25,753 nucleotides of DNA. It comes from a virus. The stretch's first letter is position 1, and each line of letters starts with the position of its first letter. Shown here one piece after another: positions 9,875-23,692 of the stretch. The notes under the pieces are model-generated. The model saw only the letters and a program-made list of their open reading frames with translations. It had not been told where the DNA came from and ran no database searches. The stretch lies in the IMG/VR virus record IMGVR_UViG_3300023172_000174, positions 1 through 25,753 of that record. The stretch is one strand, 5' to 3'. A program made the translations under genes and the position numbers.

Positions 9875-12382
9875 TTAGTCGGTAATTTCTATAAGATCTG
9901 ACCCAGAAAGAGTTTGCCTGTTGAAATAAGTGCTAACCTTCATTTCAAAGGTTGCTTTAAAATCCTTTTCAATTTTAGGCATGACTACTATCAATTGTTG
10001 TGTCATAACTTTGTCAGGGCGAGTCATATCATAGTCCAAACTCAACTGATCATAAAAGAACGTATCCCTAATATACAACGCCAACTCAAAACCTGCGCTG
10101 TAGTCAATTTTACCGCGAGAGTTGTATAACGTGTATACGCAAGCACGACCTTCGTACTTCAATTGGTTAATAGGATAACCACCTTTTACAATAGACTTCT
10201 GAGTACCACCACCATCTTCTTTACGGTATGGTTCACGCCAGTATCTTGCTTTAGCATCTGCTTCCTTTTTACCGTCAACTGCTTCGCGGATACCATTGGC
10301 AGGATTATAGTATCCTTCCGTAACCTGTAATCGGAAGTTCTTAAATTCTTTTGCCGAAGAAATACCTTCCATCAACCATGCGTGTAGGTAAAACTGACGG
10401 GCAAGATCCTGCCTATCTTTTACTATGGGCACAAACTCAAGTGAAGTCTTAGATCCTGGTGCGCCAAAGAACTTCGACATTGTACTAGATTTTGACAATC
10501 GGGTTCTACTTGTAATCGGAGCATCCATCTTATCAGGATTATAAACTGGATCTGCTACGATAGTCCTAGTTGCCGCCTGTTTGTTTTTGGGCGTAAAGGT
10601 CTTAGAAGCACGTTCCAAAGGATTGCCGAGCAACGTGTAACCGAATCTAGGGGTCGGTTCGCTACTGCCAGTTCTTTTCATTTCATACGGTGCTGATGGT
10701 GCAGGATCTTTATATTTTTCAGATATTCTATTTTCGTCAAGCAAAGAACCGATACACAGCGGACCATTAGTTTGCATCTCAGGCGCAGTGGTTGCATCAG
10801 CAGCACCGTCCATTGTACGCAACTTTGATCGAATCTCTGCTGTACTCGGCGTCCAGTTAAAATAGTAACTGTATGTGTCATGTTTAGCGATTTTATCTTC
10901 TAATGCACCATCCTCGTCAATAACAACTTTGCGTACAGCAAATGGAGAAGTCTTGTTCCAAACTTCCCACCATTTAGTTGGATTGCCATAGTAATCATAC
11001 AGTGGTTCGTGCACAATCTCAGATTCTGGAGAAGTCATTGCATAACCTTGGTTCGGTCCCAGAGGTCCTGCTGCTACCCAGAAGTCTGGATCGGTATGCA
11101 CCGCTGATCCGTCAAAATTCATTGACTGTCGGACTACGTGATTTGCCTTTGCGTTCCACCCCCACTCATACTGATAGCTTGGTTTGATGCCAGTTCCCAT
11201 ATCGCTAGTGCCGTCATGGCGAGTTTCGCCAGTCCATGGTGGGTAGTCTCTAGTGGGAGGAGGAGGACTATAAGCACCACCAGCACCTGTACCACCAGCA
11301 ACTTTTGCAAGTTTAGCATTTATAGCATTCGTCGCGTGATCAGCGCGATAAGCATCATCTGCCTGTTCTGCTTTAGTGGCAAAGTTTGAAATGTGTGCAC
11401 TATGCGCCTCTTCAGAATATTTTGCATATTTGGCAGTCCATGCTTCTAACGCACGACCTACCAAGTTTCCGTGGAATACTGTGTTCTTTCCTTGCGTGTC
11501 GTCGCCGCCACCCGTAAACAATGAACCAAAGAAATGAAACTGCTCGCCGCCAATTTTACCTTTCTCTCCGATGAGACGTAGATCTTTGGAAGATATCACT
11601 GTGTTTTTACCAGCAGAAGTTGTAATATGTTCCTCTGCTGACATTCTAATGCCACGGCGAGCATTAGGTATAATATCTCTGTTAGACAAAATACGAAAAT
11701 CTTTTTTGGTAATTATCTTGTGTTCATGAGCAGTGAAGTCTACAACATCACCCCAAACCTTGGTGTCTTTGTTTCCACGAACGATAGTCTGATGCGCGTC
11801 ACCAGTTTCGGTGATATATGTACCATGTACCGAGTGATTGTGATTACCACCAACATCAACGTTGTAGGAACCACCGACCGTCAGATTATAGTTTCCGTTG
11901 ACCGTTAGATTGAGGTCACCGTCATATGTTAGATTACCTTCGCCCTGTACTATAACTTCGTGATCAGCACCGACAACCTGAATTTGATGGGTCCGAGAAG
12001 CAACTAGGACGGATCCGTCTTGTTTGAGTTCTACACCTGCGCCAGTATGATGCTTGATAAGGATTCTCTGATTCCCAGGAGTATCATCGATCTCAAAAGA
12101 ATGTCCGGAAGGTGTTTCATTTGCCTGATTAAAAGGAAAAATGGAAGTGGTACCAACTGGGACATCAAAACTAACACCCATGGTGCTCCCGCGCATCCAA
12201 AGATCATTGATTCTTACGCCACGTCCAGGAGCACTAACATTACTCGCAAACCAATTATATCGTAATGGGTATTCGCCAGTAGGATCCGCTGATCCGTCTA
12301 AAGGAACGCCAGTAGTGAGTTCTTTACCTTGTTCTTCAGGATTGCTTATACGATCCGTGACTTTATTAGATCCAGTTGTCAT
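9875..12382 (-). CDS. 5: Central spike: VgrG/gp5-type beta-helix fused to a degenerate Hedgehog/M15-like domain
   Basis: The protein has 835 aa. Residues about 91-125 (PSGHSFEIDDTPGNQRI onward) match the region that leads into the needle of gp5 and VgrG proteins. Residues about 154-212 form octapeptide-like beta-helix repeats such as GNYNLTVG and GSYNVDVG, as in the trimeric needle of T4 gp5. Residues 310-362 are Ala-rich with A-x(2-3)-A spacing and may be coiled or helical. Proline-rich linkers follow. The C-terminal part (about 650-785) has FRLQVTEGYYNP and LKYEGRAC, very like the VTEGW and LHYEGRAVD blocks of Hedgehog and M15-type peptidase folds, but the zinc-ligand His and Asp are replaced. 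The OB fold and lysozyme of gp5 are not here; they are in the 300-aa protein upstream. It overlaps the amidase gene by one base. Confidence 0.75.
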   Translation of the reverse strand: MTTGSNKVTDRISNPEEQGKELTTGVPLDGSADPTGEYPLRYNWFASNVSAPGRGVRINDLWMRGSTMGVSFDVPVGTTSIFPFNQANETPSGHSFEIDDTPGNQRILIKHHTGAGVELKQDGSVLVASRTHQIQVVGADHEVIVQGEGNLTYDGDLNLTVNGNYNLTVGGSYNVDVGGNHNHSVHGTYITETGDAHQTIVRGNKDTKVWGDVVDFTAHEHKIITKKDFRILSNRDIIPNARRGIRMSAEEHITTSAGKNTVISSKDLRLIGEKGKIGGEQFHFFGSLFTGGGDDTQGKNTVFHGNLVGRALEAWTAKYAKYSEEAHSAHISNFATKAEQADDAYRADHATNAINAKLAKVAGGTGAGGAYSPPPPTRDYPPWTGETRHDGTSDMGTGIKPSYQYEWGWNAKANHVVRQSMNFDGSAVHTDPDFWVAAGPLGPNQGYAMTSPESEIVHEPLYDYYGNPTKWWEVWNKTSPFAVRKVVIDEDGALEDKIAKHDTYSYYFNWTPSTAEIRSKLRTMDGAADATTAPEMQTNGPLCIGSLLDENRISEKYKDPAPSAPYEMKRTGSSEPTPRFGYTLLGNPLERASKTFTPKNKQAATRTIVADPVYNPDKMDAPITSRTRLSKSSTMSKFFGAPGSKTSLEFVPIVKDRQDLARQFYLHAWLMEGISSAKEFKNFRLQVTEGYYNPANGIREAVDGKKEADAKARYWREPYRKEDGGGTQKSIVKGGYPINQLKYEGRACVYTLYNSRGKIDYSAGFELALYIRDTFFYDQLSLDYDMTRPDKVMTQQLIVVMPKIEKDFKATFEMKVSTYFNRQTLSGSDLIEITD

Positions 12383-13881
12383 TAGAAATTTTTCTCCAGC
12401 ATATCAGGATCCTTAGTTAATACATCTGGTCCCGACCCCTCAAGTGCCTTCAGGATATCCTGAGGAGACAATGCAGGGTCGTTCGGTGGGTCTAGGTATA
12501 ATGATTGCTTGTTGAAATTATTGTACACATAGTCTCGTACATCAAATCCTGGGTCGTCTTGAGATATATCTACGTCCATATGCCCTAATGCTTGACCACC
12601 AGGATATTGATCAAAGAACGTTCGGAATATTTGATATAAACTATTATACTGTGATTGCGTAATACTCCTCGGGGAGATTTCCATTTCTATCGCTCTAGTA
12701 TCTGTGGGAACGTTGACGCCGCCCACTAGACACACGCCAATAGAATATGCATTATGTCCATTGGTTGGACAGTGACTGCCAGCACTATTCAAGGGGACGC
12801 CACGTTCTACTGCGCCATTGCGTTGAATTATTAGGTGATATGCGTTATCACCAGCACCTGTTAGAGTAGTTAGTTCTGACGCAGAAAGGTTCGCATTTGT
12901 AAAAGTTTCTGACCAGTGAACAATAATTTCAGAGATATCTCTTGTCATACTTGCCATCTCTGCTTCTAATTCTTCAACCGAAGAAATAAACTGACCTCCT
13001 GGTTGTATATTTTCTTCACCGATCTTATACGATTCCGGTCCTCGATACCCTATCAACTCAAAATCTTCTTCCTCAGTTAAACTTTGAATTGTGCCTTTTG
13101 TTTGCTCAGCGATACTTTTAAGCGGAGCGAGATCTCCTCCATTCTCACCTTGTATCGTGGCAGCAACTAGGTCGTTTGTGGTGGTATCTGATACCTCTGA
13201 AGTGTCAATAATTCCTGCAGCATCAGAAACAGCATCGACTATACTCTCCGCTGCTACAGTAGATTGCGGTCCTAAAATATTATTAGCAGAAACCAGACTT
13301 TGATTGCTTGTTATTTGATTAATAGTAACCGCAGCAGCATCGCTTATACTAGCAGGGTTTCCTAACGCATCTACTATAGCATTAGACCCAAGAGCATCAT
13401 TAATAATATTTTTCGTATCGTTTATTTGGTTTAGTGCAGCGTTTTGCACGAATCCTGGTAAACCTGCTGAAAATATAGAATCGTCTACTTTGTTCAGAAC
13501 AGAGTTTAATTTTTTATCGTATAATGCTTTTATTCCTGCAAGTTGATTTTCGACATTGACTTGAGGCGCACCGCCAAGTTTTCCTAAAATGTTGTTGCTT
13601 TGTAATACAGTCGACAATACTTGCTTGCTCATTCCTGGTGTAGACCCGACCATAACATCCGCAACTTGATCATAAAGATCGGTAGGGATATTTGATCTGT
13701 TCGTTAAAGAAACACCAGGATTATTTCCGATGAAATTGTTTATCAAATTGTTTATTTGAGTAACTGCTTCTTGTGGTAGATTACCACCAGTCATTGCTTG
13801 TAATGCAGCATCGGTTCCGTTCGATCTCGTCAAACCTTGTGCAATAAGTGTATTCAAAGAAGATACGTTAGCGATTGCCAT
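12382..13881 (-). CDS. Tail-associated N-acetylmuramoyl-L-alanine amidase-like protein
   Basis: The protein has 499 aa. Residues 1 to about 300 are Ala/Asn/Ser-rich, low in motifs and probably helical. Residues about 318-460 are an Amidase_2/PGRP domain close to T7 lysozyme: IIVHWSE (H322), NAYHLIIQRNG (Y348), GSH (H370), and SIGVCLVGG (380-388), which is identical to the T7 protein over those nine residues. The third block is GHMDVD (H434) then DDPGFD (D443). H322, H434 and D443 would bind zinc, with Asp in place of the T7 Cys. The Lys that sits two residues before that ligand in T7 lysozyme is Gln here (Q441). It would cut the amide bond between muramic acid and L-Ala. It lies between hub and spike genes with TAATG overlaps on both sides, so it is probably carried in the virion. 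Confidence 0.8.
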   Translation of the reverse strand: MAIANVSSLNTLIAQGLTRSNGTDAALQAMTGGNLPQEAVTQINNLINNFIGNNPGVSLTNRSNIPTDLYDQVADVMVGSTPGMSKQVLSTVLQSNNILGKLGGAPQVNVENQLAGIKALYDKKLNSVLNKVDDSIFSAGLPGFVQNAALNQINDTKNIINDALGSNAIVDALGNPASISDAAAVTINQITSNQSLVSANNILGPQSTVAAESIVDAVSDAAGIIDTSEVSDTTTNDLVAATIQGENGGDLAPLKSIAEQTKGTIQSLTEEEDFELIGYRGPESYKIGEENIQPGGQFISSVEELEAEMASMTRDISEIIVHWSETFTNANLSASELTTLTGAGDNAYHLIIQRNGAVERGVPLNSAGSHCPTNGHNAYSIGVCLVGGVNVPTDTRAIEMEISPRSITQSQYNSLYQIFRTFFDQYPGGQALGHMDVDISQDDPGFDVRDYVYNNFNKQSLYLDPPNDPALSPQDILKALEGSGPDVLTKDPDMLEKNF

Positions 13882-14906
13882 TATTCAGGAACCTCATCAA
13901 CAGGAGATATGAAGTTCAAGATACCTTCTTTACCGTCTTTAACATATGTCAAACCTTTGATTGGCGGATAATTACCAATCTCAGTTGCCATAGCAGGCAA
14001 GGTATCGTCGTACATACCGTTGGTCCCCTCAACCAGAACTTCGTCTAACATAAATTTAATACTCTTTGGCGTTGCGCTGTTTACAATACGCCAAGGATAA
14101 TGGTTTCGCTCATTATCTAGGTGATAAATGTCAGGGTCGTTTGGTATTCCTGGGAATCCATCAACTCTGGCATCATCTTCCTGTAACTCGCGAACTTGCA
14201 TGCCACCGATAGAGTGCGTAACTGTATCATAATACCATGCAACGATGTCGCTGAACACTGCAGTAATACCATCTACAGGTTTATACGTGCCGTTGACAAT
14301 CATCGGAGGAACAACTGGTGCATCTTTCCAAAGATACCCATACTTCCAAGATTCGGTAGAAGGTTCGCCCCATTCAGGTGCTTGTCCATATGGCGTCGGT
14401 GGCGGTGTTCTTCCTGGTGCGCCAGTTCCATCAGCACCAGTTTCAGGTTCATACCAAAAAGTATAGGTTTCACCAATGACTCTCTCGTACAAGAACTTTT
14501 CTTTACCTGTTTCATTGACGTGGTGAAACTCGTCCTCATACATATGGTCGCCTGCTTGGCCACCTTGCGCTTCCCACCACAACGGCATTTCCATTTCACC
14601 GTGAATATACAGCATACCAGTGCCGTAGGTAAGATGGTCTATGTCAGGAACTTCTTCCGTGAGCGATACCCAACCATCTGCACGATCTTTGTGTACTAGG
14701 CGACCATCATTTTTAGATGAACCGTGAGAATTTAGGGAACCGAATCGCTCGAAGTCACGGACACCGTATCTTCCGATATTAGATAAGTTCTCGATCAACC
14801 ACTGTTTAATTCTCTCAGCATGGATTGCTTCAAGTTCTCGTAACCCAATACGATCCAAAAAGTTTTTGATATACTGATTAATTTCGCTGAGGTTTATAGT
14901 TGGCAT
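13881..14906 (-). CDS. Conserved-position hub protein of unknown function
   Basis: The protein has 341 aa and I do not recognise the family. It starts with an amphipathic helical stretch (residues 1-50), is rich in Trp, Tyr, His and acidic residues, and has a Pro/Gly-rich loop around residues 160-180 (GAPGRTPPPTPYG). No signal peptide, membrane segment or catalytic motif was noticed. Both ends overlap neighbours by one base (TAATG): the OB/lysozyme gene upstream and the amidase gene downstream. Because every neighbour belongs to the central hub and spike, it is likely a structural hub or spike component, or a clamp holding the amidase. That is inference from position only. Confidence 0.6.
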   Translation of the reverse strand: MPTINLSEINQYIKNFLDRIGLRELEAIHAERIKQWLIENLSNIGRYGVRDFERFGSLNSHGSSKNDGRLVHKDRADGWVSLTEEVPDIDHLTYGTGMLYIHGEMEMPLWWEAQGGQAGDHMYEDEFHHVNETGKEKFLYERVIGETYTFWYEPETGADGTGAPGRTPPPTPYGQAPEWGEPSTESWKYGYLWKDAPVVPPMIVNGTYKPVDGITAVFSDIVAWYYDTVTHSIGGMQVRELQEDDARVDGFPGIPNDPDIYHLDNERNHYPWRIVNSATPKSIKFMLDEVLVEGTNGMYDDTLPAMATEIGNYPPIKGLTYVKDGKEGILNFISPVDEVPE

Positions 14907-15808
14907 TATCTCGCTCCAAGTCCTCCGTAAATTCCTTTCGCCTTGCCTATAGCACCACCAACGCTACAAGCAGTCCTAGGGTCGACATAATATTTAACTA
15001 GTTGCGCGACCTGTCCGTTACCTTTTTCTTCAATACCGTCAACTTTCTCTCCATACAAGTTGCCTTCTATCTCGCGTGCGCGCAAGACTTTGGACATGGC
15101 CATCGAACGAGCAGTTTTTAGTTCGTGAAGAACATATAGTAACTGCCCCTCAAAATCTTTATCGTCTCTAGTTGGTGCTAATCGACTTATATAAGCAAAA
15201 AATCTATGATACCGAGGACTGTTAGGTTGCCATCCAGCGATACCTATACCGTTCCCAGTTTGCGTAGGATCTAATCCGCTGACCTCTTGCAAAACACCTG
15301 TAATAGAAGATGCTTGTTTTGCGTTAAACCCATTATCTATAAAGTATCTAGCAACATCTCCTGCTGACGCTGGACCAGAATTTTGCACCTCTGGGTCAAT
15401 AGCGTCCGCATTAGATTGTTGAAACGAATACGTGAATGGATTGGTTGCCATATCTTCACGATTAGATGCTTGTACCGTAGTCGGAAACTCGATACGAGGA
15501 AGCGAACCCAAAACCAGTGGCAACTGAGAAGTAGCACCGTCTAAGAAAAATCCGAAAACTAGTGCACCAGGAAGTATCATGGTGCTAGTTCCTAATCCAG
15601 ACACGCCATATGTATCACCAGGATTCATAACTTGCGCCCAAGGAAGATCGCGCTGAGGGATACCAGACTCGTCAGCAACGTCAGTGTGGATACCATGTAT
15701 GCGAATCTTTACTCGTCCCTCTAATCCGTAGGGAGGAGTATTATCAATTACATTAGCAACAAACCAACGTACATTATCTCCGTAATATTCGTTTTCCCAA
15801 GTCTTCAT
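14906..15808 (-). CDS. 5: gp5-type OB-fold hub protein with a phage-lysozyme-2-like domain
   Basis: The protein has 300 aa. Residues about 11-106 match the N-terminal OB domain of T4 gp5: DNVRWFVANVIDN, GRVKIRIHGIH, IPQRDLPWAQV, and GALVFGFFLDG followed by LPLVLGSLP. Residues about 148-250 resemble the phage tail lysozyme family (Phage_lysozyme2): ARYFIDNGFNAKQASSITGVL, SGLDP, then GIGIAGW. In that family a Glu directly precedes the SG(L/F)xP motif. Here that position is V176 and a Glu sits one residue earlier (E175), and the usual GIAQW reads GIAGW. The protein therefore supplies the OB and lysozyme-like parts of gp5 without the needle. It follows the gp27-like hub gene with a TAATG overlap, as expected because gp27 and gp5 form one complex in T4. 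Confidence 0.8.
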   Translation of the reverse strand: MKTWENEYYGDNVRWFVANVIDNTPPYGLEGRVKIRIHGIHTDVADESGIPQRDLPWAQVMNPGDTYGVSGLGTSTMILPGALVFGFFLDGATSQLPLVLGSLPRIEFPTTVQASNREDMATNPFTYSFQQSNADAIDPEVQNSGPASAGDVARYFIDNGFNAKQASSITGVLQEVSGLDPTQTGNGIGIAGWQPNSPRYHRFFAYISRLAPTRDDKDFEGQLLYVLHELKTARSMAMSKVLRAREIEGNLYGEKVDGIEEKGNGQVAQLVKYYVDPRTACSVGGAIGKAKGIYGGLGAR

Positions 15809-17187
15809 TACGCAGTGCCTCCATCAAGGTCTGCAACTTTAGTTACAGATACAGCGACCTCGTGGGTGGTTGACTGAAAAATATTTCTACACTTATGTAT
15901 TAGATAAGTACCAGATAAATCTTTATTAAATTCTTCGTCGCCAGCAGTTTCAACGTTGGTGTTTTTAAAATTAATTTTTATTAAGTCGCCGACAGTAACG
16001 CCAGATGCGCCGTTTTCAAGTTGTGACCAAAACGAGATTCCTGGCAATATTAAGTCAATCATGTTTTTATTGAACAGACTCTTTACAGCATAATGCCTTA
16101 ATTTGTTGAGTGCTTCTGACTGATCGAACACATCGTGATAACTATTCCTGTATCCGTAGGTTCCATAAGAAGTTACGAGGTTTATATAACGGGCATCAAA
16201 CTCATCGAGTGTTTTAGTCTCGTTGTCGATAGTAAGTTTCTGTTCGTCATCAAAAACATTTTGTTTGCCTCCCTTCATCATACCACCTTCAGTGTCCATC
16301 TTCTCTATAAGATCGGTTACACCAAAATGCCTAGAATATCTTTGACTGCTAAACACATCATAAGAACTCATCATAGCACCAGCAGAACTTTCTGCTGCTA
16401 GTTTCAAGGTGTCTTGTAAGTTCTCAAATGAGATTTTCTTTACGATAAATGCCTGCTTCGAAATGTCTGCACCACCAGCAGATTGTCCTCTCGCCTGAGA
16501 ATATAGGACAGGAAGTTCTTCGTTCCAGATTTCTTTTTTGTACATATCCTCTAAATTACCAAAACGAATAACATCTTTGCCGCCATTTAATTGTTGATCA
16601 TAAATCGTTTGATATGCATAAAAAGGTGCGCCAATTTTAGTTGTTGCTCTGTCCATTAACCATTCAACTGCTTCTAAAGGACTAATGTATGGCGTAATAA
16701 TTCTTACAGGTGACTGCTTACTTTTTTGCCCGTCCATATAGTTTCTATCAGTTCGCACTTCTAAGTGGTTCTTTAGTATAGACTCAGATATATCTTCTAA
16801 TTTACCAGTGTAAGAACGAGAGATTTTTATAAACTGATCTTTGTATGCATGAGGCGCAATCAGGTTTAAATGGTACATTTCACTACGCTCACTCAGTTTC
16901 CTGACTTGAACAATAGATACGATGTTAAACTTTATATCTACCTTTGCTTGAGGTATTTCCGGAATCTGAATACTCAAGTCTATTTGCTCAGTGCCTTTCA
17001 ACTTTATTTCGTCAAACACACCAAGATCGTCAAATACCAGTATTTGTCCAGTAACATAAGGTTTTTCTAGATCTTCGAAAAAATCTATTTCGGCGATCAT
17101 TTGTTTTACGTCATAGTCATCGCTCAGTCTGTCTGCGCTGATTACTGCTTTCGTAATGACATATTCTTGTTGTACATTCTGTACCAT
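15808..17187 (-). CDS. 27: gp27-like baseplate hub protein
   Basis: The protein has 459 aa against 391 aa for T4 gp27. The N-terminal part has YVTGQILVFDDLGVFDEIKL (residues 44-63) followed by EQIDLSIQIP and a long beta-rich region, a pattern shared by gp27 and other trimeric hub proteins. The C-terminal GVTVGDLIKINFK and LSGTYLIHKCRNIF also fit tail hub proteins, which use such modules to connect tube and spike. In T4, gp27 forms a trimeric ring holding gp5. Here it is directly upstream of the OB-fold gp5 part, with a one-base overlap, and one base after the gp53 stop. Similarity to gp27 is by pattern and position and would need a profile search to confirm. Confidence 0.7.
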   Translation of the reverse strand: MVQNVQQEYVITKAVISADRLSDDYDVKQMIAEIDFFEDLEKPYVTGQILVFDDLGVFDEIKLKGTEQIDLSIQIPEIPQAKVDIKFNIVSIVQVRKLSERSEMYHLNLIAPHAYKDQFIKISRSYTGKLEDISESILKNHLEVRTDRNYMDGQKSKQSPVRIITPYISPLEAVEWLMDRATTKIGAPFYAYQTIYDQQLNGGKDVIRFGNLEDMYKKEIWNEELPVLYSQARGQSAGGADISKQAFIVKKISFENLQDTLKLAAESSAGAMMSSYDVFSSQRYSRHFGVTDLIEKMDTEGGMMKGGKQNVFDDEQKLTIDNETKTLDEFDARYINLVTSYGTYGYRNSYHDVFDQSEALNKLRHYAVKSLFNKNMIDLILPGISFWSQLENGASGVTVGDLIKINFKNTNVETAGDEEFNKDLSGTYLIHKCRNIFQSTTHEVAVSVTKVADLDGGTA

Positions 17188-18854: not shown

Positions 18855-19358
18855 ATGCCGAGGACTTACAAGGGGAAGTACACAGTAAAACACCCCAGCA
18901 AGTACAAAGGGAATCTTGAGGAGGTCGTGTACAGGTCTAACTGGGAAAAATCAGTTATGATTTGGTTGGACAATAACTCCGAAGTTGCCAAATGGAACAG
19001 CGAAGATTTTATCATACCATACTACTACGACGTCGACAAAAGGTGGCACAAATATCACGTTGACTTCTGGATTAAGTTCAAAAGCGGAAACGTATTGCTA
19101 GTAGAGGTCAAACCTAAAAAGCAAACTCAACCGCCCAAGTCTAAGAACCCTCGTAGCAAACGCTCACTCAACGAAGCATTCGCATATATCAAAAACCGCA
19201 ACAAGTGGGAAGCAGCAGAGCAGGTGGCGAAGGATAATGGTTACAAATTCGCGATATGGACTGAAGATGAGTTGACGAAAATGAAAATCCTCAACAAGAC
19301 TCCAGGAAAACTGAAGAAACTAAAACCGCTCGCTCCGTTCAAGAAAAAGAAAAGTTAG
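18855..19358 (+). CDS. 4: Head completion protein gp4 (PD-(D/E)XK nuclease-like)
   Basis: The protein has 167 aa, near the 150 aa of T4 gp4, and lines up from the first Met: KYKGNLEEVVYRSNWEKSV matches the T4 KYRGDPKKITYRSNWEKFF region, and VEVKPKKQTQPP matches IEIKPKKETQPP. The nuclease-like core is visible as E31, D70 in HVDFWI, and E84 with K86 in VEVKP, as in TnsA-type and PD-(D/E)XK folds. In T4 it finishes the filled head before tail joining. The C-terminus is Lys-rich. It is alone on the plus strand inside the minus-strand cluster. Its TAG stop overlaps the stop of the tape measure gene by four bases, and no ribosome binding site is seen before its ATG. Confidence 0.9.
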   Translation: MPRTYKGKYTVKHPSKYKGNLEEVVYRSNWEKSVMIWLDNNSEVAKWNSEDFIIPYYYDVDKRWHKYHVDFWIKFKSGNVLLVEVKPKKQTQPPKSKNPRSKRSLNEAFAYIKNRNKWEAAEQVAKDNGYKFAIWTEDELTKMKILNKTPGKLKKLKPLAPFKKKKS

Positions 19359-22189
19359 AGTTTCCTTCCTCTATATGCCCCGCGAGCAGTTCGATCGCTC
19401 TTATCCATTGGAGAAGTCATTGGACCAGAGTTTATAGTTGTACTGTTGCTTACGTTTGAGTTTTGCGTAGGGGCAAATACAGCGTTGCCAGCTGCCGTAG
19501 CAGATTCTTGTTCTTTATTCATTTCTGCTTTTTTCTGTTCCATATCGAGGACGTTAGATCTCTGCGCAGATTCTTGATTACCGCCAACTAACTCTGGAGA
19601 TTTTGGCGTAATGCTGACTGCGTTTTCGATCTTACCACCAGTTTCCATGGCGATTTGTGCTGCCTCTTCTGGGGTGCTAGCAGTTCCTAACAGTTCGCCC
19701 GTCTCTGGATCAGTTACTGGATAACTAAACTGTTGCGCTGCCTCTGCTATATCAGGAGAGAAAGCATCTCCGTTCATCGCTTCCGGAGTTTCCTCTGGTT
19801 CTTTTGGTTCAAACGTGAAGTTCATTGAAGAGAAGAAGTTCTTGACCTTAGTTGCAAACTTCTCTTGATCTTGCAAGAACTCTTTAACTTGTTCTGGTGA
19901 GGCACCCGAATCAACCATTTGACGAACTTGTTCAAATACTTTAGGACCAACATCAAATTTTTCGTAGGTATCTTCTAATTGTTTAAACTCGTCAGTGACT
20001 AGGTTGTCTATAGTTGTACCAGTGTCAATATAGACATTTCCTTTAGCAGTGTCGTCGTCAAATCTGGCGGTTAACGAACTAGTCTTCTCTACGATTTCTT
20101 TCTCGCCGAACTCGTTAGTTTTGTACTCGCGCTCCGAACTGTTCGCTATAGCGACTACTTTATCTTGTCGAATCGAACTCGTGTGACCCGACATCCGTTG
20201 TGAATCGCCATCTTGTTCGTACTCAGAACCAGAATTAACAATAAACTCGGTATCGCTTGAGGTACGCACACCTCCTGCCACATCAGCTGAACTTTCCGGA
20301 GCGAATGGATAGAATGGACCAAACCCAACTTTGCCGACCAGAGGTACGTCAAACTCTATGCGAGGTATGCCGAATCCTTCAAACAAACCTTTGATTAACT
20401 TTTTAATTTTTCCAAAGTCAAACAAACCGCCGACCCACTCTTTGATGTCATTGAATCCTTCGATCAGTGGATCTAGTAACCCATCGAATGGAGAAGTTTT
20501 AAGATCTTCTATTTGAGGTTGGATGTCAGTATCAATTACAGGTTGGATATTATCGTATTCACCATCGTCTAAATCACTACCCGATGCGCCCATAAATAAT
20601 CCAGCTTGTGGCGTCCCTATAATACCACCACGCTTACCTGTCGCTGTATTAATTTTAGTGGGCGCAGGAGGTGCTTCTCCTATAACTCGACCACGTTTAC
20701 CAGTTTCTTTACTAACTTTGGTTGGTACGGGAGGTGCTTCACCTATAACTCGACCACGTTTCTCGGGCACTTTAGTTGGTTCAGATGCTTGAGCAGATGG
20801 TTCTGCTCCTTCTGCCTGTGGGAAAAGATCTGGTCCTCCCATTGCAATGGATGCAGTTCTCGCTGCGTTTATTTGCTTGAGTTCTTCTTCTGAAAAATCC
20901 GTTCGCGCAACACCATCTTCCTCAACAACCACTCCACCAACTTTTTTAGCAGTCTTACTAGTTTCCTGCTTCCCAGTAAAGTCGTCGAGTCGTTCCTTTC
21001 CTTCTTCGCTAAAGTCAGTATCGTCAGTATCAGAAGGTATTTCCATGCCACGCTTTGTGCTTTCTTCCTCTTCTTCGTCGTCACCGCCAAACCAATTTAG
21101 TGGGTTGAGTTTTGATGCAAACCCAAGTATACCGTCGACGATCATATCCTTTATTCCGATTACAAAATCTTTCACTGCGTCGACCATACTTCCAAATATA
21201 TCGGTAATAGAGAACGAATCTAGTATTTCAGCGGCACCATCGAAACCAAAGAAACCTAATATTCCTGATATCAGATCTTTTATCCAGTCCAGCGGGATTG
21301 TGAGAATCTTCATAATTCCTTTTATAAAACCTGCTACGCCGCCAAATATTTTATCAAGCAACGTGCCTTCTTGACTCTGGAATCCTTCAATGAAACTCAT
21401 AATACCAGAAACTAGAGCAGTGACAGCAGCAGCGATAGCAGCAATCGGTAGCAATATCGGTGCGAGAGCAGCGATTATAGGGGAAAGCATGGTCATGAGT
21501 CCGGTAAAGAGTCCGGTGATCATAGGCATGACCGTAGCACTAATAAATCCTAGAGTGGCGGTCAAGGCAGAACCAATCGCAGGTAATACGGTTTGAATAA
21601 GAGTTGTGCCTATCCTCATCAGGAACGAGAACAGTCCCTTTCCCAATAATTTGATGCCATTTAACAAGAACTTGCCCGCACCCGATATCAACTTACCTGC
21701 GCCAGTCAATGCTTTTGTTATACCACCAGCAAGTGTGGGGAATTTAGCAGCAAACAAAGACCAAGCGAGAGCAATTTTACCTGCCCACTCTCCAACGGTT
21801 GATACGAAATCTTCGACTGCTGTGAACAACCCAAGTTTTTCTGGGTTCATTCCGTCTTCGAATCCTTTTAAGAACGCACCCTTTATCTTTCCTGGTTTCT
21901 TTTCTCCGTCATCACCGCTTTCATCGCGCTGCCTTAACCTTTCTCGAGTATCATCATCTTTCTTTTGCCTATCTGCGATGCTTTCTTCTGTTTGAATAAG
22001 ATCTTGGAACCCTCTAGAAAGTGTTTCTGGGACAGTGTTCATAAATGTAAGCATGACACTGGTCAGTTCTTGCATTCTTTCCGACAGTTGTCCTACACGG
22101 TCAGATATCTCAAACTGAGCATCGAGATGAAGGTCTGAATAATCGTTCAGTTCTTTGAGTTCTGTTACGACGGTTTCTAAGGTTGCCAT
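19355..22189 (-). CDS. Probable tail tape measure protein (gp29-like role)
   Basis: The protein has 944 aa. The N-terminus is charged and helical (residues 1-105). Residues about 135-335 hold a long hydrophobic, Gly/Ala/Leu/Ile-rich region with several possible membrane segments, as in tape measure proteins that insert into the host membrane at injection. An acidic run (DDEEEEE) follows near residue 375. A tandem repeat of 21 residues beginning KRGRVIGEAPP spans residues 477-530. The C-terminal third is acidic and Gln/Thr/Ser-rich and ends in GAYRGRKL. It is directly downstream of gp26 and its frameshift extension, the same order as lambda G/GT and its tape measure. The T4 length determinant gp29 has 590 aa. 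The identification rests on composition and order; sequence similarity to gp29 was not established. Confidence 0.7.
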   Translation of the reverse strand: MATLETVVTELKELNDYSDLHLDAQFEISDRVGQLSERMQELTSVMLTFMNTVPETLSRGFQDLIQTEESIADRQKKDDDTRERLRQRDESGDDGEKKPGKIKGAFLKGFEDGMNPEKLGLFTAVEDFVSTVGEWAGKIALAWSLFAAKFPTLAGGITKALTGAGKLISGAGKFLLNGIKLLGKGLFSFLMRIGTTLIQTVLPAIGSALTATLGFISATVMPMITGLFTGLMTMLSPIIAALAPILLPIAAIAAAVTALVSGIMSFIEGFQSQEGTLLDKIFGGVAGFIKGIMKILTIPLDWIKDLISGILGFFGFDGAAEILDSFSITDIFGSMVDAVKDFVIGIKDMIVDGILGFASKLNPLNWFGGDDEEEEESTKRGMEIPSDTDDTDFSEEGKERLDDFTGKQETSKTAKKVGGVVVEEDGVARTDFSEEELKQINAARTASIAMGGPDLFPQAEGAEPSAQASEPTKVPEKRGRVIGEAPPVPTKVSKETGKRGRVIGEAPPAPTKINTATGKRGGIIGTPQAGLFMGASGSDLDDGEYDNIQPVIDTDIQPQIEDLKTSPFDGLLDPLIEGFNDIKEWVGGLFDFGKIKKLIKGLFEGFGIPRIEFDVPLVGKVGFGPFYPFAPESSADVAGGVRTSSDTEFIVNSGSEYEQDGDSQRMSGHTSSIRQDKVVAIANSSEREYKTNEFGEKEIVEKTSSLTARFDDDTAKGNVYIDTGTTIDNLVTDEFKQLEDTYEKFDVGPKVFEQVRQMVDSGASPEQVKEFLQDQEKFATKVKNFFSSMNFTFEPKEPEETPEAMNGDAFSPDIAEAAQQFSYPVTDPETGELLGTASTPEEAAQIAMETGGKIENAVSITPKSPELVGGNQESAQRSNVLDMEQKKAEMNKEQESATAAGNAVFAPTQNSNVSNSTTINSGPMTSPMDKSDRTARGAYRGRKL
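20600..20761 (-). repeat. 63-nt in-frame tandem repeat in the tape measure gene
   Basis: There are two full units (20699-20761 and 20636-20698) and a 36-nt partial third (20600-20635). They encode 21-residue units starting KRGRVIGEAPP, KRGRVIGEAPP and KRGGIIG, each with PTK and ATG/ETG-type ends. The DNA copies have diverged at synonymous positions, so this is an old expansion kept at protein level. Confidence 0.85.
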
Positions 22190-22224: not shown

Positions 22225-22419
22225 TCACATTTTAGACAGTCTTCGTTGTTCTGCCTTCTCGTTTTCTTCTTTAATGTACTCGGTGAGGAGAGTAATATAG
22301 ATCTCCCTTTCCCACGGTAACATATTTTCTAACTCAGTCAACGAATAATTGTGATGCTGCATCAGGGCGAAGTTAGTCTTGTAATGGTTTACAAGATTAT
22401 CATGGGAAAGGGTTATCAG
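22225..22419 (-). CDS. Frameshift extension of gp26 (GT-type tail assembly chaperone segment)
   Basis: This 64-codon open segment lies in the -1 frame relative to gp26. It becomes continuous with gp26 exactly after the slippery T TTT TTC at 22419-22425, and no stop intervenes. It begins LITLSHDNLVNHYKTNFAL and contains SLTELENMLPWEREIYI before a Lys/Glu-rich end. It has no convincing start of its own: the first in-frame ATG is well inside and has no ribosome binding site. The slipped product would have 301 aa (237 plus 64). The position before the tape measure gene fits the G/GT chaperone pair of lambda-like and other long-tailed phages. It may correspond in place to T4 gene 51. Coding is well supported; expression by frameshift is a strong inference. 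Confidence 0.75.
   Translation of the reverse strand: MITLSHDNLVNHYKTNFALMQHHNYSLTELENMLPWEREIYITLLTEYIKEENEKAEQRRLSKM
22377..22396 (-). repeat. 8-bp hairpin downstream of the frameshift site
   Basis: A perfect inverted repeat, TCTTGTAA and TTACAAGA around a 4-nt loop, begins 22 nt after the slippery heptamer. It could stimulate frameshifting, although the spacing is longer than the usual 5-9 nt. The stem is A/U-rich, so its stability is modest. Confidence 0.45.
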
Positions 22420-22440
22420 AAAAAATCAGACAACCCTTTC
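22406..22440 (-). repeat. 9-bp inverted repeat enclosing the slippery site
   Basis: The arms GAAAGGGTT (22432-22440) and AACCCTTTC (22406-22414) are perfectly complementary. The 17-nt loop contains the slippery heptamer and the gp26 stop codon. It is not a terminator, because no U-run follows the second arm. Confidence 0.6.
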
Positions 22441-23129
22441 AGTTCTAGTACGTTATTCGTGGCGCACTTAATACAATCAAACTCTGCTGTATGTTTTAGT
22501 GCTGGACTTTCTTGAAGAAAATCTGTGATATTTTTTATTTGTGTAGCAGTCATTGAGTTTAAGAACTCAACTACTTCTTGTTGTGCAAGATCGGAAGTGT
22601 CGATCCTCTCTTCAGCAGTGATCACAGCGGTGACTGACTTTGCCACTAGGTCAATAGCAGCAGAAACATCATTACGAGCACCGTCGACGTCGCCCTCTAC
22701 CATAGAGTTGAATGTAGGGTATCTCATCTCTACTGAAATACTATCAGTAATTTTGATAATATTCTTTTCCCTCTCTACAGGAATCTCTAATTCTTCAAGA
22801 TTAATATGGTACTCGTTTGATTGCTCGCATTCTCTGCATCGAATATAAATTGTCGACATCTCGCCTACAGACTTCGAACGTAATTGTGTAAACAAATACT
22901 CAATGTCAAAAGTCGCAAGTTCTTGTACCACAATTTTTTCAGAAGGATCTAGGCAAGCAGTGATAGTGTCGCACATCGCCTCAAGGCATGTCTTGGGGTC
23001 TTTCGACTCGAATGCTTGAAGTAGAACTTTTTCTTCTTTTACGAGGTAGGGTCTGTATTTTACTTTTTGTCCCGTTGACGGGATATTCATAGTAAAATTC
23101 AAAGTTTCATTAATGCGTGGTAACGCCAT
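22416..23129 (-). CDS. 26: gp26-like baseplate hub / tail assembly chaperone (unshifted product)
   Basis: The protein has 237 aa and belongs by pattern to the T4 gp26 family (T4_baseplate). It has MALPRINETLNFTMNIPSTG at the N-terminus and YRPYLVKEEKVLLQAFES (residues 25-42). Two CxxC pairs, C98/C101 (RCREC) and C219/C222 (DCIKC), could bind one zinc. The start follows CGGAGAA at good spacing. The last codons are GAT TTT TTC TGA, so the stop directly follows a canonical -1 slippery heptamer. In T4, gp26 takes part in assembling the hub. By analogy with lambda gpG, the short form and the shifted long form would bind the tape measure protein. The upstream neighbour is the tube-family protein, 17 nt away. 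Confidence 0.8.
   Translation of the reverse strand: MALPRINETLNFTMNIPSTGQKVKYRPYLVKEEKVLLQAFESKDPKTCLEAMCDTITACLDPSEKIVVQELATFDIEYLFTQLRSKSVGEMSTIYIRCRECEQSNEYHINLEELEIPVEREKNIIKITDSISVEMRYPTFNSMVEGDVDGARNDVSAAIDLVAKSVTAVITAEERIDTSDLAQQEVVEFLNSMTATQIKNITDFLQESPALKHTAEFDCIKCATNNVLELKGLSDFF
22419..22425 (-). promoter_or_regulatory. Programmed -1 frameshift slippery site (T TTT TTC)
   Basis: The minus strand reads GAT TTT TTC TGA, so the heptamer T TTT TTC is in the correct phase, next to the zero-frame stop. After a -1 slip the frame continues as CTG ATA ACC and stays open for 64 codons. A 9-bp inverted repeat flanks the site and an 8-bp hairpin follows 22 nt later. Confidence 0.75.
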
Positions 23130-23146
23130 GATATTCTCCGATAATG

Positions 23147-23692
23147 TTATGATACTGTATAGTGACTAAAATCTACCGTAACAGTCAATTCTCCAACAGC
23201 GCCAGCTTGTTGGTTGTTAAATTCAATTTCATTGATTGCTGTAGGGTATGCACCTTCCAGCGTTATTGTGTATTTCTTTGCGCCAAGTTTATCTAGTTGA
23301 GAAATTTTTATTTCTTCAACATAGTTATCTCGGTATCCGACAGTGTACGGTGGCGTAGGATTAACTATCCTATCCATCCATGCTTGCCAATATTTTCGAG
23401 CAACATAATTTTGAGTGAGATAAAACGTCATTGACACTGCACTAAAAGTGTACCCAGAAGCAACCTTTATTGGTTCTAGACCTATCTGACGATCTAACGT
23501 CGCAAGAGTTTTAGAAGGCAAGGAAACTTGGGTACATAATTCGTTTACAGGTTGCGAAGGTTGGAAATCTACAAAGTCGCCGGATGGTGTGCTACCTGCC
23601 ACTAAAGGAAGTTTGACTTCCCATCGGTTGATATATGCTGGTCCGCTCTCTTGTTCAAATCTTCCGCGAAGGGTATTTGTACTAAAACTCAT
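23147..23692 (-). CDS. Tail tube-family protein (gp19/gp54-like)
   Basis: The protein has 181 aa. The C-terminal half has the tube pattern: QAWMDRIVNPTPPYTVGYRDNY, then KKYTITLEGAYPTAINEIEF (residues about 139-158), and AGAVGELTVTVDFSHYTV at the end, as in T4 gp19 and the tube-like domain of gp54. The N-terminus (RFEQESGPAYINRWEVKLP) also fits a tube monomer. Because it sits with baseplate genes rather than with sheath and portal genes, a tube-initiator role (gp54-like) is more likely than the major tube protein, but the sequence does not decide it. It overlaps the 201-aa gene by four bases (ATGA), with a TAGGAAAA binding site before the start. Confidence 0.7.
   Translation of the reverse strand: MSFSTNTLRGRFEQESGPAYINRWEVKLPLVAGSTPSGDFVDFQPSQPVNELCTQVSLPSKTLATLDRQIGLEPIKVASGYTFSAVSMTFYLTQNYVARKYWQAWMDRIVNPTPPYTVGYRDNYVEEIKISQLDKLGAKKYTITLEGAYPTAINEIEFNNQQAGAVGELTVTVDFSHYTVS

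Follow-up and report, generated by a model that had tools for sequence, protein, structure and literature searches.

Does gp26 of this marine T4-like phage yield a single protein or, through a programmed -1 frameshift at its 3' end, also a longer one that continues into the overlapping open frame? The window, that is the whole stretch of 25,753 nucleotides of the IMG/VR record IMGVR_UViG_3300023172_000174 that was analysed, is a fragment and carries one gp26 and one extension, as we call the open frame entered by the shift. In the original prediction gp26 was read as ending in GAT TTT TTC TGA, with a heptamer in the phase for a -1 slip and a shifted frame open for 64 codons. Both the sequence, which at the 3' end of gp26 is GGG TTG TCT GAT TTT TTC TGA on the minus strand, and the coordinates are right, and the shifted frame is open up to the TGA listed in Table 1. 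The whole is best explained, with a probability of about 0.94 in our estimate, by a chaperone gene of the G/GT type which, as its sequence predicts, would give a short and a long form by programmed -1 frameshifting, the extension being the predicted C-terminal domain of a 301-aa long form (the TAC-NC or GT equivalent).

Table 1 Features of the gp26 locus in the window (positions are those of the window)
Feature	Position	Strand	Remarks
Tail tube protein gene	23147..23692	-	Directly upstream of gp26; PHROG_45 tail tube, E=3.8e-30
gp26, predicted to be the short chaperone form (equivalent of TAC-N and lambda G)	22416..23129	-	237 aa, stop included
SD-like GAAAGGG inside gp26	22434..22440	-	Separated from the heptamer by 8 nt; proposed as a stimulator on the upstream side
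Hairpin enclosing the slip site, 14 bp	22406..22440	-	z -4.5 versus synonymous shuffles in the window phage
Slippery heptamer TTTTTTC	22419..22425	-	Phase T TTT TTC; gp26 TGA (22416-22418) immediately 3'
-1 frame extension	22225..22419	-	64 codons, LITLSHDNLVNHYKTNFALMQHH...; stop TGA 22225-22227
Downstream hairpin TCTTGTAA-ACCA-TTACAAGA, 8 bp	22377..22396	-	22 nt past the heptamer; possible stimulator
In-frame ATG within the extension	22360..22362	-	45-aa ORF; without ribosome-binding site
Tape measure protein gene	19355..22189	-	944 aa; next gene downstream, right after the extension; match to PHROG_58 (tail length tape measure), E=4.8e-12

The profile searches assigned gp26 to Pfam PF12322 (T4_baseplate, E=1.2e-55) and to PHROG_150 (baseplate hub, E=4.2e-54), and the extension to PHROG_634 (baseplate hub assembly catalyst, E=3.5e-27); Pfam gave no model for the extension, and NCBIfam gave no name for gp26 or for the extension. 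The tail tube gene also matched Pfam Phage_T4_gp19 (E=8.6e-5), under the curated cut-off. The order of the genes at the locus is thus tail tube - gp26/extension - tape measure, which is the order of the lambda genes V-G/T-H.

For the set of relatives, IMG/VR was searched with gp26 and with gp26 alignments and annotated phage records were added, which led to 276 loci with a readable gp26 end. These loci are kin, so that their counts are not independent; the set is not made of near-copies, because gp26 identity to the window gp26 reaches down to ~30%. A T TTT TTN heptamer in the gp26 phase, 7-34 nt ahead of the stop, was present in 276/276 loci, and the -1 frame was open into the same conserved domain in every one of them, so that the conservation foreseen for both elements is borne out; it is this conservation that decides that the observation is real. 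The extension has a length of 53-72 aa where its end is present (11 loci end earlier), 230 of the extension sequences are distinct, and the consensus from the slip site onward reads xxxLSHDxLxNYYxxNFxLMQHHxYSLTELENMxPWEREIY. The codons around the slip site are also constrained: in 230/230 distinct loci T is the last letter of the codon that precedes the slip codons, compared to 63% predicted by the codon use of gp26, and TTT serves as the first of the two Phe codons, again in 230/230, compared to an expected 72%. Within the 17 genes of the window (6,984 codons) only two in-phase T6 heptamers were found. The second one, TTTTTTC at 17077-17083 on the minus strand, is located near the 5' end of the gene at 15808-17187.

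We considered the possibility that the extension forms a small gene apart from gp26, with its own ATG, translated by internal initiation or by re-initiation after gp26, as it is annotated (gp51, baseplate hub assembly catalyst) in several public records. The extension had been predicted to be devoid of a start of its own, which is incorrect to the letter since an in-frame ATG is present at 22362, near the 'gp51' start chosen by annotators of several relatives, and some relatives exhibit an ATG only a few codons past the gp26 stop, as a separate gene would have it. This ATG has no ribosome-binding site and no conserved position, the first ATG being found at distances of 3 to 129 nt into the extension. 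The anti-SD energy in the window was -0.7 kcal/mol for the extension ATG versus -6.6 kcal/mol for the gp26 start. In the relatives, the first ATG of the extension had a mean of -0.84 kcal/mol with 3% of the values at or below -6, compared to -5.7 and 60% for gp26 starts. Four loci showed no visible ATG in the extension, at least two of them because the contig end clips it.

The 22362 ATG is, in addition, located 3' of conserved coding sequence. Over the 18 codons from the slip site to the usual ATG, the dN/dS ratio was 0.09 in the -1 frame, versus 1.9 when read as gp26 and 2.4 in the remaining frame (202 pairs with 80-99% identity), and purifying selection on these codons, which the original prediction had anticipated for the shifted frame, is therefore present from the slip site on and in the -1 frame only. 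The codons ahead of the usual ATG are kept as protein, in the same frame as the extension, which argues against a start at the ATG. (A dN/dS of 0.0 obtained for the remainder of the extension in more distant pairs was a saturation artefact and was discarded.) The profile of the predicted fusion matched T4 gp51 with an E-value of 1.2e-12, through the junction, and T4 gp26 with an E-value of 1.2e-20; the alignment with gp51 runs through the junction, and what lies ahead of the ATG is therefore part of the protein. A separate gene would also leave the invariance of the heptamer unexplained. A properly started gene for the extension is not supported, the 22362 ATG is unlikely to be its real start, and we consider independent translation of the extension very improbable. 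Among the annotated records with this layout, none of those fetched had a joined CDS, the extension being given as a separate gene or left unannotated; in the cyanophage-type records examined it would thus be misannotated, either way.

The same fusion could also arise from transcriptional slippage on the T run, producing mRNAs with one extra U. The run has 7 or 8 T in 114/230 distinct loci, which would suit this explanation, but it is exactly 6 in 116/230, window included, and a run of six is short for polymerase slippage. Moreover, the T TTT TTN codon phase and the SD-like element are conserved and transcriptional slippage needs neither, and we give it as slight a chance as the separate gene. 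That the -1 open frame is due to chance, or is the decayed remnant of a former fused gene, has in its favour that 64 open codons arose in ~0.7% of trials in which the stretch was modelled as a first-order Markov chain, but it is refuted by a frame open in 276/276 loci and under strong purifying selection and retains practically no probability.

Ribosomal frameshifting at the heptamer is therefore the reading kept here. The coding pattern, selection and homology were established by computation. In the mechanism that we infer for the cell, including how often the slip occurs and what the products bind, most ribosomes would halt at the TGA after TTT TTC and give the 237-aa short form. A minority would slip back by one base on T TTT TTC, with two Phe tRNAs in the P and A sites, and would then read CTG ATA ACC..., leading to the 301-aa long form GLSDFF/LITLSHDN... 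(the slash marks the junction). The slip would probably be stimulated by the SD-like stretch before the heptamer and by RNA structure after it. The helical domain added in the long form would be the counterpart of the C-terminus of T4 gp51, to which the extension is homologous as judged by profile comparison. If the parallel with lambda G/GT holds, the domain common to both forms would coat the tape measure protein and the additional one would recruit tail tube subunits. A single tryptic peptide is enough to test the prediction: the junction peptide expected for the window phage is GLSDFFLITLSHDNLVNHYK, and a product started at 22362 would begin with MQHHNYSL.

We then looked at the surroundings of the slip site for putative stimulators. 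In the 18 nt before the heptamer region, the mean anti-SD pairing energy was -5.9 kcal/mol, compared to -4.7 kcal/mol for synonymous shuffles and -1.9 kcal/mol for internal gp26 windows. The downstream RNA (+9..+69) was stabler than synonymous shuffles with a mean z of -1.60 ± 0.11, compared to -0.29 for the upstream control, and its shapes vary between clades. The downstream hairpin of the window phage (Table 1) recurs in the window's clade, with a compensatory change in 2 of its 8 pairs in the RNAalifold consensus, and its 22-nt distance from the slip site is far for a classical stimulator. The hairpin enclosing the slip site was rejected as a class-wide conserved element, since its register and pairing shift from clade to clade and z reaches only -0.74 over the whole class; the clade of loci L012-L015 exhibits, at the place of the 22406-22440 hairpin, a different hairpin in a different register. 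Such an enclosing hairpin could not stay paired with a ribosome on the slip site. A search of the region against Rfam gave no match.

The AlphaFold2 (AF2) model of gp26 had a mean pLDDT of 91.5 and that of the extension showed three helices with a pLDDT of 86.9. When the gp26 model was compared with PDB folds, the HK97 tail assembly chaperone 2OB9 ranked second with weak scores (E=0.39, prob 0.63, TMt 0.41), a match between model and fold that is only suggestive at this E-value. Searching PDB sequences with the gp26 and extension profiles gave no meaningful match. Weak matches of the extension to gp41 entries of the PDB were confined to its C-terminal helix and were taken as chance.

The frameshift device is of a known kind, to which this T4-like locus would add a member. 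As for lambda gpG/gpGT, a short protein would be accompanied by a minor -1 fusion, with the first gene carrying the slippery heptamer at its 3' end and the locus lying between the tail tube and tape measure genes; the G/GT analogy and the position ahead of the tape measure gene, both put forward in the original prediction, agree with the order PHROG_45 - gp26/extension - PHROG_58. In the G/GT-type class the fusion is made at a low fixed ratio, domain 1 binds the tape measure protein and domain 2 the tail tube, and both proteins are absent from the virion. A difference from lambda is the heptamer, here T TTT TTN, and none of the family matches was to gpG, the likeness being one of arrangement. 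A 2016 review described G/GT frameshifting as widely conserved in the tail assembly genes of long-tailed phages, 'except T4' (PMC5009743), whereas the phage of the window is T4-like. The lambda G/GT device would thereby reach a very abundant group of marine phages, within a lineage listed in that review as the exception. Frameshifting in TAC genes, with a GTTTTT motif, is also found in Vandenendeviridae and Andersonviridae (Pseudomonas phage Adele, PMC12846349), which are different phage families and were compared by description.

T4 carries 26 and 51 as two separate, divergent genes, which rules out a frameshift in T4 itself. The predicted-fusion profile matches gp51 across the junction and T4 thus appears to have as two genes, one short and one long, what these phages would make from one gene and a frameshift. 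Genes 26 and 51 of T4 would in this way gain a concrete common role, as the short and the long tail assembly chaperone. The T4 tail assembly chaperones are reportedly the subject of a study by Vladimirov, Gautam and Davidson (2022, Virology 566:9-15), and their genes are presumably 26 and 51. According to a later paper, which cites Vladimirov 2022, there are T4-like phages with a short gene next to a long, fused one in their gene set (PMC10885494). Another one credits Vladimirov 2022 with polyT slippery sites in the TAC-N genes that T4-like phages carry (PMC12846349), so that the frameshifting type may be described there and the present locus type may already be covered by that study.

The ten complete relatives with this arrangement each have one gp26 and one extension, adjacent to each other, and the long form is therefore not supplied by a separate full-length gene in these ten phages. 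For two of these phages gp26 comes out as two adjacent pieces, which form one open frame. None of the ten has the T4-style pair of separate genes. The frameshift layout was found in Aeromonas phages phiAS5 and 65.2, Vibrio phages PVA23 and VmeM-32, Sinorhizobium phage phiM7, Caulobacter phage Cr30 and Rhizobium phage AF3; Aeromonas phage AS-gz has the two-gene layout of T4. The earlier suggestion that T4-like gp26 loci share the device thus holds for the Kyanoviridae-type and several other T4-like groups, but not for T4 or for AS-gz, in which 26 and 51 are separate. We propose tentatively, at somewhat less than even odds, that the -1 frameshift is ancestral in T4-like phages and was kept in the marine Kyanoviridae-type, Emmerichvirinae, Chrysonvirus, Schizotequatrovirus, Emdodecavirus and Pootjesviridae, that T4 genes 26 and 51 arose by a later split into a short and a long gene, that the annotation of a separate 'baseplate hub assembly catalyst' gene is wrong, and that the hairpin enclosing the slip site adds a layer of control in the window clade.

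The T6 heptamer was absent in the three Ackermannviridae relatives examined (L285, L286 and L287), in which gp26 is followed by a protein-like -1 frame of 50-56 open codons. Their gp26 ends in ATTTTCAT or GTTTTCAT in place of T6 and the shift site must therefore be different.

Two minor observations were made in the window. The gp26 protein (22416-23129, minus strand) has two CxxC pairs, CREC and CIKC; T4 gp26 has cysteine residues at similar places (CTC and CPEC), which are absent from the aligned cyanophage versions of gp26. These cysteine residues might possibly form a zinc-binding unit, lost in one lineage. PHROG_430 (baseplate hub subunit and tail lysozyme) was matched by two genes, both on the minus strand, the gene at 14906-15808 covering positions 15-108 of the profile, in its N-terminal part, and the gene at 9875-12382 covering positions 334-520. 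Between them lie an amidase-domain gene (12382-13881, PHROG_822) and a gene at 13881-14906 for which no match was found, as if, in the 9875-15808 region, a gp5-like hub had been split and its lysozyme replaced.
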